From Muricea muricata (Eukaryota; Cnidaria; Anthozoa; Malacalcyonacea; Plexauridae), in the NCBI GenBank assembly GCA_963855995.1, contig OY979719.1, positions 868,001-932,000 of the forward strand: a stretch of 64,000 nucleotides of DNA, given 5' to 3'. The position numbers were made by a program, and so were the translations under genes. Shown here one piece after another: positions 59,512 to 64,000 of the stretch; position 1 is the stretch's first letter, and each line of letters begins with the position of its first letter. The notes beneath the pieces are model-generated. The model made no database searches. It was not told where the DNA came from and saw only the letters and a program-made list of their open reading frames with translations.

Positions 59512-61929
59512 TCACCACATATTATTGTCTTCCCCATAGACAAGCCGTGCGAATAAAACAACTGTACCGAATGTAACAGCATTGGTAGGAAAAGCTCGAA
59601 TAACTGTTGAACTCATTCCTTGGAAAAACATGCCCCATCCTTCGGCACGATAACTCTTTATCGCACAATCTGTACTACTTTTATATATCCCTTTTAAGTC
59701 TGCCTGAAACCTGGACTTGATGACATCACAAGGGTAAGTAACTATCCAAGAGATAACTCCGGCAATCCCGCCAGCCAAAAGGACAGTTACTGGCTTTGGC
59801 TGATCCTTAGTCTCAGACCTAGGCCCAAGTTTACATAGCTCATCATAGCAATAAAAATACACTCCTCCTGCAGGTATTTCACGGACTAAAGTAACACACA
59901 TGCCTTTTGAAATTCCTCTAAGGCCTTCAGTTCTAAATATTTTCCACATGCAGTCTATTGATCCAGTGTATCTTAGTTTTTTCCTTTCTCCGGTTGCCAA
60001 TTTTCGTGGGTCAACACCCTCACCTTGTACTTGTAAACGAATCTTTGCCAACTCTAGGGGGCCGCATATAATTCCCTGTGCCACACCAGAAACACAGCCG
60101 GCCCAAAATACAGCATATGGTACATGCTGCAGACGTCGAAAAGACTCACTGTAAGAACCAAAGACACAGCCATTAATGAATGCTTGCCCAACCAATGGTG
60201 AAGCCATTCCTTTAAATAAACCAGTCACCTGAAATATGACAGACATATAATTGTTAATTCATTTGGTTCACATGCATGTATAAAAATTACAAGAAATTCA
60301 TGCTATGCAACAAGTACAACTTTGTAGGTTCTTTGTAAGTAAAGCAAAACTCACAAACATTATTGAACTCACTGATTCATATTTAACTATTTGTACAACC
60401 GATTGAAAAACTCCACGGTAAATACGCTCACCATGTTTTTGCATCTGAAGTCGAACCTGTAACAGAGAATTGGCATGTTAGACTATTTTTTGACCTTTAG
60501 AAAATTTCTGGCAATGGTAAAAAAAAATTATCAGTAAAATTACAAAATTTACTCTGAGCAAACAACTAAAAAGGCAAAAAATACAGCATCACAAATTTTG
60601 TAGATTGTGTATATTATGATTGAATTGTTCCCATTTTTTAACAAAAATTCAGATCAGCCACATTCTAGATTACAGAGTTTGTCAAAATTGCTTTTGAAAT
60701 ATTTTGTGTTAAAAATCATGGCACCACTAGACACGATTTATAACAATTTTAAACTGTTTTTACAATTCATCATTTAACCTCTTTTAAGACCCATCTAAAC
60801 AGTAATCACATTTTGTGTCTTTGATAGGCTCATGGTGTGCAGTTGCTCATGTGTGCTAATTGTGTCTACCAGCTGCGATCAAAAACTCCCCATCTCTTGA
60901 GTCTGTTCTGCTTCAAGACCTTTGCTAACACTTTATAAGCAAAAGTAAATTATATCTATTTATATGCACCTTTACTGTATCGAAAGGATGTCCAGCAATG
61001 GTTCCTGCCATACCTGTTAAAATAGCAATAAAATGGAGAAGACTGATGAACTAATGTTGCAGCTAATTGTTACTTTTAAATAATATAATCTTAATACCAT
61101 TCTCAATATCATTCTAACCAACTACAGTTGTCATTAGTGTATAAGAATCTTCGACTAATAAATATGTAATGCCAATTACAGTAAGTGTTGGCCATTGTTT
61201 GCGACGTATGTTTACGATAAGATTTCAACTGTTTACGAAATGATACAAATTTCTTGAGCTTTGACCTATTATATAATTATGTTTTTTGCTGTTAGAGACT
61301 GTTTTACGTCCACAATTGCTTTTCTATGCCATGCGATGTACTCTACAAGCAACTCCACATATTTTCCCTTGATTTCAATTTAGGTCTGTGCATAGGCTAG
61401 CTGCTAGAATGCGGGGTGGATAATACACCTGTCCGCCTCAACGACGGGACACGGTACACACCTTTTAATAGACTTATATGTTCATATTTATACAACAGCT
61501 TTTCTACGCAAACAGTCTTAAAAAAAGAAATTCGTTGTTCTTCAAGCATATATAGTTGTAAAATGTAGTAAAATATTGTACTGTCGTTCTTCGTCACTTG
61601 AAATGATATAAACAGCATTGGTCCTTCGGACTTGCGGGCAAAGGTTCTTCCTCTGCGGCTCTGGAAGTTAGTAGTGCTGCTTTAAGATATTGTTTCAAGT
61701 AGTGAAAGATCCTATGCTTTTGTGTGCTTTTAACCCTACTACCGACGCTGGCAACGTTTTAATATTGCAATTACCGGCATTTTGGACACGTGTACTGTAC
61801 AATTTTTTTTATACTATTAAAATGTCATTGCACTGATTGACCAAAAAATATATCACGGTATTTTAATCGTTGTACAATTGACTCACCACCGAGGCATCCA
61901 CCGACAAAATCTATGACATTTTCGTTCAT
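59512..61929 (-). CDS. SLC25A29-like mitochondrial carrier, tandem paralogue
   Basis: Four exons (61929-61887, 61013-60970, 60456-60373, 60228-59512) encode 295 residues. The N-terminus is MNENVIDFVGGCLGGMAGTI. Carrier signatures: HPFDTVKVRLQMQ, GPLELAKIRLQVQ and YPCDVIKSRFQAD, with RAFPTNAVTFGTVVLF at the end. Intron positions and phases match the neighbouring carrier exactly (intron 1 after phase 1 in the GG pair, a 44-nt exon 2, intron 2 after DTVK, intron 3 after ES), so the pair arose by tandem duplication. Substrate is probably a basic amino acid or related cation, but the changed repeat-3 motif (PCDVIK) and a longer insertion (PRKLATGERKK) may mean a different specificity. Confidence 0.88.
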
Positions 61930-62557: not shown

Positions 62558-64000
62558 TTAGTCCCTCCAAATCGTCTGCAGTTCCATTGCAGCATTACAA
62601 GATCTAAACTTATTAACGAAATCTGCATATCCTCTTTGGACGTGATGTATGCCTTCGATTCTCGTTGTTCCATTTCTTGCAAGCGCTGCCAGTATCAAGG
62701 CTGCGCCAGCACGAATATCACCAGCTTCGACAGGGATTTCAGGCTGCAAAATAACAAACATTTTAAACTGCGGTTAGGATTAGACAAGATTAGGCAACGC
62801 TACGGATTAGAAATGTACTCCGATTCCAGGAATAAATCAACAATTGATTGTTTGCAATTAGCTGCAGATGCATCTCATTATTTCTCTCTGATGACAGGAA
62901 ATACTGCCCATCATGTGCTAATATGTTATCAGCTAGAAAGAATTCTATTGTAAACGTGTAATACGTCTTATGATTTCACACGAAGCAGGACGTGACATGT
63001 CTATTGCGAACAAGCAATTAAAACGATTACCAGTTTGTATTGAAGAATCAGTCGAATTAACATTGGCCACATACTTATACACAATTATTGCATGTCCAAA
63101 AAAAAGAAGCGATTGTATTTGTGAAGAGCTTGTATTTGTGAACTGACATTACCTGCTGATAATTTTGCCGGCCAGCATTTCCACGAATTTTAACTTTTCT
63201 CCTGTTGCGGCTTATTGTCGCACCCAAATTCAAATTTTGCAGTTCCTCAATGTAGCCAAACCTCATGTCGAAGACGGTTTCTTCAATCCATGATTCTCCA
63301 TTGCTGAAGCACATGAGCGCGGCCCACTGAGGGTGGAGGTCGGTAGGAAATCCAGGATACGGTTTCGTCTTAACGCTAACAGGACTTATCGGAAGTAACT
63401 GTTGACTTCTGGCATTTTTCTTTCGTGAAACACAAATGATTCCTCGTGCTTTGCGGATAATGTCCACTCCAGCAGCAAGCAAACGCCAGAATTCTGATTC
63501 CAACAGCTCCAAAATGACTTCGTCTGCGAAATCTCCCATCCTCAATTCAAGGCTCCCACCTATACAGAAATGATCGAATCTCTGGCTAAGCAAAGAAGCT
63601 TTTTGCATTATTCGCAAGCTATCACCCCACCAGCCCTTTGGCAAAACCTATTATATTTAGACAACTTTGTACTATTCTGTACCCTAATCCTATGCAGCAC
63701 AAACTATGCTTGTTATTATGGTAATAATTCCGTGTTCTCAGTACGCGAAATTAAATTTTAATCCAAGCCCTAAATCTAATCAAATCTTCAATCAATCAAA
63801 GTTAAAACATGACAAATAAAACGCTGGTTAGGATTAGGGTTTGGGTTAGGGCTTGGATTAAGATTTATATGAGAACACGGAATTATTACCATTATTATTA
63901 CCTGTAATTACAGCAGCAATTGCGTAAGTCCCAGCTTCAATTCTATCTGGAATTACTGTGTGAGGGATGGGTGTTTTGTCCCAGCCACTTGAAAATGATG
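62558..64000 (-). CDS. murA: MurA-like UDP-GlcNAc enolpyruvyl transferase, 3' part
   Basis: Three exons are visible (64000-63902 running off the window, 63559-63153, 62743-62558) and join in phase to the last ~230 residues. MurA transfers enolpyruvate from PEP to UDP-N-acetylglucosamine, the first committed step of bacterial peptidoglycan synthesis. Motifs in order: HTVIPDRIEAGTYAIAA; KTKPYPGFPTDLHPQ, with the catalytic Asp of the PxFPTD motif (Asp305 in E. coli); ETVFDMRFGYIEEL, with the conserved Arg331 equivalent; GDIRAGAALILAALA, with the Arg371 equivalent; and HHVQRGYADF, with the Arg397 equivalent. The PYPGFPTD and HxxRGY motifs separate it from EPSP synthase. Both introns have GT-AG sites, and the neighbours are animal genes, so it is not bacterial contamination in the assembly. 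The catalytic Cys loop and N-terminus lie outside the window. Confidence 0.92.
63711..63900. repeat. Foldback element with telomere-like core in MurA intron
   Basis: GGTAATAATTCCGTGTTCTC on the left is mirrored by GAGAACACGGAATTATTACC on the right; arms of about 75 bp also share AATCCAAGCCCTAA. The right arm contains GATTAGGGTTTGGGTTAGGG, close to the TTAGGG telomere repeat. The right end abuts the exon donor at 63901 with no spacer, so the donor and first intron bases coincide with the element edge. Confidence 0.8.

Follow-up and report, generated by a model that had tools for sequence, protein, structure and literature searches.

The 64,000-nucleotide stretch of Muricea muricata DNA analysed here (the window, C4:868001-932000 on the 19.2-Mb contig C4, within an assembly of 453 Mb and 74 contigs) raises the question of why an animal genome should hold, and keep, a gene for MurA, an enzyme of the peptidoglycan pathway. 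The gene was examined together with its neighbours, its relatives and the remaining steps of that pathway.

Structure of the MurA gene

The initial annotation had proposed a MurA interrupted by two introns at the right-hand end of the window, and the borders given for these introns proved exact in a spliced model, with GT-AG ends and the reading frame maintained. The N-terminal exon that it expected to the right of the window was found there, with Lys22 and Asn23 kept and the catalytic Cys replaced by Asp. The gene (gene A) is an intact four-exon MurA on the minus strand, running from 62558 to 64983 in window numbering with its first exon beyond the window. Joining the four exons gives a single open frame of 461 codons plus a stop, and all three introns of the minus-strand model are GT-AG. 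The features of the region are as follows.

59515..61929, minus strand: mitochondrial carrier gene (SLC25-type), several exons, start read by eye; outside the transferred set
62558..62743, minus strand: gene A exon 4; Asp369/Arg371 and Arg397 equivalents, stop codon; PF00275 match
62744..63152, minus strand: gene A intron 3, phase 0 (spliced model)
63153..63559, minus strand: gene A exon 3; PYPGFPTD (Asp305 equivalent) and Arg331 equivalent
63560..63901, minus strand: gene A intron 2, phase 1; holds MITE-like inverted repeats
63902-64216 (in-window part 63902..64000), minus strand: gene A exon 2 (spliced model); EPSP_synthase match
64506-64983 in window numbering (C4:932506-932983), minus strand: gene A exon 1, right of the window; start codon, Lys22/Asn23 motif, Cys115 place

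The adjacent mitochondrial carrier gene, also named in the initial annotation, was confirmed by a PF00153 match (E 1e-44) in its 59515-60258 exon, and its ATG at 61929 lies about 630 bp from gene A. Within intron 2, MITE-like nested inverted repeats were observed at window positions 63681-63895 together with telomere-like CCCTAA stretches; the outer arms (63715-63740 and 63870-63895) are 26 nt long and 96% complementary, and the inner arms 22 nt and 95%. As the matching intron of the related database frame P0008 looks much shorter, this element may be a later insertion.

A cluster of three MurA genes

Matches to the EPSP_synthase family were found at eight places in the 453-Mb assembly, all of them at C4:930609-940443, and these belong to three divergent MurA genes lying within 12 kb (C4:930558-941999). 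The eight matched stretches, spread over the three genes, were above the PF00275 cut-off and were the only matches to this family found. The two further genes lie to the right of gene A, on the stretches L009 and L010.

L009 7371-8094 and 8347-8966, plus strand: gene B; one intron, 447 aa, Cys type, intact spliced frame
L010 423-3999, plus strand: gene C; five exons, four introns, Cys type

Genes A and B are divergently oriented, and B and C run in the same direction. The start of exon 2 of gene C is ambiguous, its frame being intact in each of three possible joins. Intron number differs between the genes (three in A, one in B and four in C); an ancestral intron common to A and C is conceivable, as intron 2 of A and intron 3 of C share phase 1, but the alignment sets the two a codon apart. 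GC3 was 0.39-0.42 for the three genes, compared with 0.33 and 0.41 for two host exons. The introns, the 19-Mb contig, the animal neighbours and this host-like composition bear out the earlier claim of a MurA in the animal genome, as a nuclear gene.

Several other features were noted to the right of the cluster. Between gene C and a Nudix ORF, at L010:4751-8118, the mirrored ORF list shows a seeming long inverted repeat of about 3.4 kb overall, whose arms are tandem repeats that translate as KAPHIM-type repeats. The Nudix ORF itself, of YffH/AdpP type (L010:8890-9378, C4:946890-947378), lies 4.9 kb right of gene C and scores 60 bits, below the YffH/AdpP cut-off of 79.6; we take it to resemble NUDT14, and it could act on UDP-sugars, which is offered as a lead only. 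Further right, in L011 (C4:948001-958000), the ORF list suggests a tandem duplicate of a whole block, which holds FMN-dependent dehydrogenase (hydroxyacid-oxidase-like) and DUF4419 ORFs.

Family and fold

In a protein search gene A matched a Paramuricea clavata protein with 66% identity over 98% (E 1.4e-188). In an NCBIfam scan covering genes A and B, gene A scored above the cut-off of the MurA subfamily PRK09369 (399 bits, cut-off 297) and below that of the stricter equivalog TIGR01072 (368 bits, cut-off 393), and gene B was above the cut-off for both. Membership of the AroA/shikimate pathway was rejected for gene A, as the aroA model gave 50 bits against a cut-off of 287. Gene A matched 46 PDB sequences, of which 32 MurA entries came first (199-253 bits), followed by NikO (116 bits) and then 13 EPSP synthases.

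For fold comparison, an AlphaFold model of the Paramuricea orthologue P0002 (A type) was used as a stand-in for spliced gene A. The model, built with 33 aligned sequences, had a pLDDT of 91.4 and a pTM of 0.92, and among the 50 PDB matches listed MurA structures took ranks 1-43, their TM values to the target reaching 0.93; NikO followed at rank 44, with EPSP synthases after it. The gene did not fall into another animal protein family, an outcome that the initial annotation had named as one that would refute it.

Active-site residues

The active site was compared across 38 animal rows and 20 hand-chosen bacterial rows. Gene A carries Lys25, Asn26, Arg95, Arg126, His131, Ser174, Glu200, Asp250, Arg251, Asp338, Glu358, Arg364, Asp409, Arg411 and Arg437, which we take to correspond, in that order, to MurA positions 22, 23, 91, 120, 125, 162, 188, 231, 232, 305, 329, 331, 369, 371 and 397, and Asp119 stands in place of the catalytic Cys115. 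Positions 22, 115, 120 and 397 are numbered in PMC4790336. The PYPGFPTD motif and the Arg positions claimed earlier for gene A are present in the alignment. Lys22, Asn23, Arg120, Asp305, Arg331, Asp369, Arg371 and Arg397 are found in all three Muricea genes; the first seven are invariant in the animal rows covering them (35-37 of 38 each), and 35 of 36 rows keep Arg397, the frame of the remaining one having run into an intron at that point. Odd residues at positions 231 and 397 come from P0137, P0143 and P0008, whose frames likewise read into introns at those places.

Position 115 is Asp in gene A and Cys in genes B and C. Asp occurs in all eight A-type rows covering the position and in one B-type row (P0125 of Dendronephthya gigantea), and Cys is kept in the other 27 animal rows covering it and in 20 of 20 bacterial rows. 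As a B-type sequence also has Asp, the change from Cys to Asp seems to have occurred twice, once in the A type and once in P0125. According to PMC4790336, an E. coli MurA with the Cys115Asp change retains full activity and escapes inhibition by fosfomycin, and Asp is the natural residue in M. tuberculosis, C. trachomatis and B. burgdorferi.

Other positions vary more. Glu329 is replaced by Asp in 25 of 36 animal rows, all of B or C type (Asp in gene C, Glu in its relative P0142); at position 123, Asn occurs in 10 animal rows and Lys in one; and Arg91 is Pro in P0139. Between positions 115 and 120, 30 of 36 animal rows carry two residues more than the 20 bacterial rows, four carry three more and two match them in length. 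The B-type P0125, isoform X1 of D. gigantea LOC114520101, combines Asp for the catalytic Cys with the absence of the loop insertion. Because of the insertion and the Asp for Glu329, the kinetics or substrate of the animal enzymes may differ from those of bacterial MurA.

Relatives and origin of MurA

Two MurA protein searches were evaluated through the best 120 of 7951 and the best 120 of 7988 matches. Among the named rows, a minority of each best 120, octocorals were the only animals, and no hexacoral or other eukaryote was named in either. Paramuricea clavata contributed P0002 (A type) and P0122 and P0123 (B type), all listed with a longest contig of 31,909 bases, and the database name of these proteins already states their identity. 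P0124 and P0125 of D. gigantea are listed as isoforms of the single locus LOC114520101. P0122 and P0123 agree at every one of their first 250 residues and diverge beyond, close to where gene B has its intron; alternative 3' exons, a partial duplication of recent date or an artefact of gene modelling could account for this, and the two stand for at least one gene, not surely two.

Among the other rows, the frames of P0008 and P0137, for each of which a 239,560-base contig is given, run on into introns where A and B have theirs, so that both derive from a relative sharing these introns. P0007 and P0134 (both with a 45,034-base contig) are whole, uninterrupted frames, and the full-length frames on short contigs (P0001, 1,696 bases; P0142, 1,670) may be transcripts.

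A tree of 76 rows was built from the three Muricea genes, 35 rows taken as animal, 34 hand-chosen bacterial rows and four of the six loci obtained in a scan of named bacterial genomes, none of the six being close. The 35 rows, five of them named, were taken as animal because they scored above bacteria or were close fragments, with the close fragment P0189 excluded. One branch (100/100) separated the 38 animal rows from the 38 bacterial rows, a limited sample of bacteria; the split is partly built in, as 30 of the 38 animal rows were labelled by score. Genes A, B and C and the named octocorals all fell inside the animal clade, which contains three subfamilies. A viral donor was also considered and rejected, since the best segment among 10 viral loci reached 41% identity, no better than bacteria. 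The horizontal transfer put forward in the initial annotation is supported by the MurA family and fold, by named relatives that are otherwise bacterial among the rows listed and, within the limit just given, by the tree.

Retention, the second part of that proposal, is likewise supported by intact frames and by catalytic residues conserved across deeply diverged copies. In the close pair of gene A and P0008, 16 of 18 residues were identical at the start of the intron 3 read-through, and the exons were 85% identical over 212 columns, P0008 itself carrying intron read-through; with these values no stronger constraint on exons than on the intron is visible in that pair. The case for retention rests on deeper comparisons, A-type copies being 57-67% identical to each other with whole frames and catalytic residues kept.

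MurB and the rest of the pathway

The Pfam domain MurB_C had a single match in the genome, at C3:20206883-20207257, the contig being 60.7 Mb long (control 10/14 genomes). The gene is an intact, intronless ORF of 339 aa with a GC3 of 0.31, on a contig other than that of the MurA cluster. It scored above two NCBIfam cut-offs (PRK00046, 408 bits, cut-off 277; TIGR00179, 222 bits, cut-off 144.5) and below those of five other murB models. Ser238, Glu335 and Arg163, which we take to be the catalytic residues, are invariant in 20 of 20 aligned rows. About 6 and 10 kb away lie a collagen-repeat ORF (30 bits, cut-off 27.2) and an HYPK-UBA ORF (27.1, cut-off 27); ORFs that look transposon-like by eye in the ORF list are nearer.

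D. gigantea has two MurB orthologues, 75% and 70% identical, so the gene is not private to one genome. In a tree of 56 of the best 120 rows, a six-row clade (100/100) comprised P0234 (identical to the Muricea MurB), P0235, P0236 and P0238 of D. gigantea, P0237 and P0239. This clade, whose stem measures 0.18 changes per column, joined the Bacteroidota-like rows P0240-P0242 (97/90), and Bacteroidota (Pontibacter and others), about 57% identical, lay further out. P0240-P0245 may be bacteria or animals.

The search for MurB-F homologues elsewhere in the assembly, suggested in the initial annotation, was successful for MurB and unsuccessful for MurC-F: Mur_ligase_M (PF08245) and Mur_ligase_C (PF02875) gave no match in the genome at E 0.001 (controls 12/14 and 11/14). 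FPGS, an animal relative of the Mur ligases that we presume to be in the genome, was not reported by this exon-wise search either, so divergent, intron-rich ligases could be missed. The result speaks against easily seen, MurB-like ligase genes, as judged by PF08245 and PF02875, and a full peptidoglycan pathway was rejected as the middle and C-terminal domains of the Mur ligases were not found. At C1:98945141-98947547 (L022-L024) lies an ATP-grasp gene of several exons whose C-terminus resembles that of D-Ala-D-Ala ligases (E 1e-6); it is not assignable to Ddl, the two-stretch Dala_Dala_lig_C match being far below the NCBIfam ligase cut-offs.

Discussion

Two bacterial genes, MurA and MurB, have probably been transferred to and retained in octocorals, which could thus have enzymes able to make UDP-N-acetylmuramic acid (UDP-MurNAc) without peptidoglycan. 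The scheme that we consider rather probable is that gene A and the Cys-type genes B and C would convert UDP-GlcNAc and PEP to enolpyruvyl-UDP-GlcNAc, and that the octocoral MurB, probably acquired separately, would reduce this product to UDP-MurNAc. The enzymatic activities of MurA and MurB, and the coupling of the two steps, are predictions from sequence, and the genes, being on different contigs, need not act together. The presence of MurB favours, without proving, the first role named in the initial annotation, use of enolpyruvyl-UDP-GlcNAc in a new pathway. As MurC-F were not found, the most likely, if conjectural, use of UDP-MurNAc in the animal is as a sugar donor or small molecule and not for peptidoglycan; at a guess, it would then serve a glycosyltransferase or be split by a sugar diphosphatase. 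An Asp-type copy might go on working amid fosfomycin-like compounds, a possible reason for keeping two acid types. The full account, in which two separate transfers give octocoral-made UDP-MurNAc for use outside peptidoglycan, for example by adding muramic acid to glycans of the animal or to a compound that it secretes, with a MurA proof against fosfomycin kept alongside Cys-type copies, is put forward tentatively.

A less likely explanation is that the MurA paralogues have turned to another acceptor or product, as in NikO, with MurB acting separately and no UDP-MurNAc being made. Such a shift would accord with three deeply diverged subfamilies, different general acids, the loop insertion, the Asp that mostly replaces Glu329 in B and C, and a MurB unlinked to the MurA cluster. 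NikO is also a known relative in the fold comparison, and presumably uses a different acceptor from MurA. However, Arg120, His125, Ser162 and Asp305, which we take to surround the substrate, are kept, NikO is a much weaker sequence match than the MurA entries, and D. gigantea too has both MurA and MurB.

Octocorals host bacteria, and it is also conceivable, with lower probability still, that the host provisions or controls a bacterial symbiont through early peptidoglycan precursors. This has been proposed for mealybugs, and Planococcus citri carries murA-F and ddlB (PMC5664097). Against it, MurA and MurB were the only members of the set found in the genome, with no MurC-F, and the occurrence of MurA in at least three octocoral genomes and of MurB in at least two points to a host function rather than to one particular symbiont.

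Inheritance by vertical descent since an early eukaryote, the other animals having lost the gene, appears improbable: the deep split between A, B and C would fit it, but no other eukaryotes were among the named rows in the best 120 of either MurA search, and the stem of the octocoral MurB clade leads to Bacteroidota-like rows. Bacterial contamination or a dying insertion, to which an intronless MurB and the exon constraint not visible in the short A/P0008 comparison might point, was already disfavoured and can be given hardly any weight in view of the size of the two contigs (19.2 and 60.7 Mb), the spliceosomal introns of all three MurA genes, the animal genes nearby, a base composition like that of the host, unbroken reading frames and orthologues in named octocorals.

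The preferred reading, two retained transfers with UDP-MurNAc as the product, can be set beside several known systems. The octocoral enzymes resemble bacterial MurA in fold, length and catalytic residues, and gene A has a counterpart in the Cys115Asp enzyme; they differ in that gene A is an animal nuclear gene with three introns, MurA is present as three paralogues, the Cys loop is longer by two residues and no MurC-F was found in the genome. NikO-type enolpyruvyl transferases, MurA-like enzymes used outside peptidoglycan in antibiotic pathways, belong to the same superfamily, but identity in the fold match was 23-24% and the octocoral residues follow MurA.

Animal mur genes are already known from the mealybug P. 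citri, whose nucleus holds the horizontally acquired bacterial peptidoglycan-pathway genes murA-F and ddlB (PMC5664097). The mealybug has ligases and a nested symbiont, whereas in the present genome no member of the set beyond MurA and MurB was found, MurA has several copies, and the genes are shared among octocorals. The octocoral mtMutS is another foreign gene fixed across the group (PMC8438181), but it is mitochondrial, derives from a giant virus and has an unrelated function. No octocoral MurA and MurB pair was described in the titles and abstract openings of the papers listed in literature searches, and term searches returned nothing on an animal MurA in PMC13342648 (a compendium of metazoan transfers, main text), PMC12855814 and PMC6006793.

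If the preferred reading is true, octocorals are an animal lineage that keeps the two committed enzymes of muramic acid synthesis but no other part of the wall pathway, and their sugar chemistry would be one not known from animals. Muramic acid is known from bacterial cell walls and serves as an indicator of bacteria, and to animals muramyl compounds signal danger. Its use as a bacterial tracer in coral work would then be complicated, and the octocoral MurA and MurB would offer a clear and testable example of part of a foreign pathway being turned to a new purpose.
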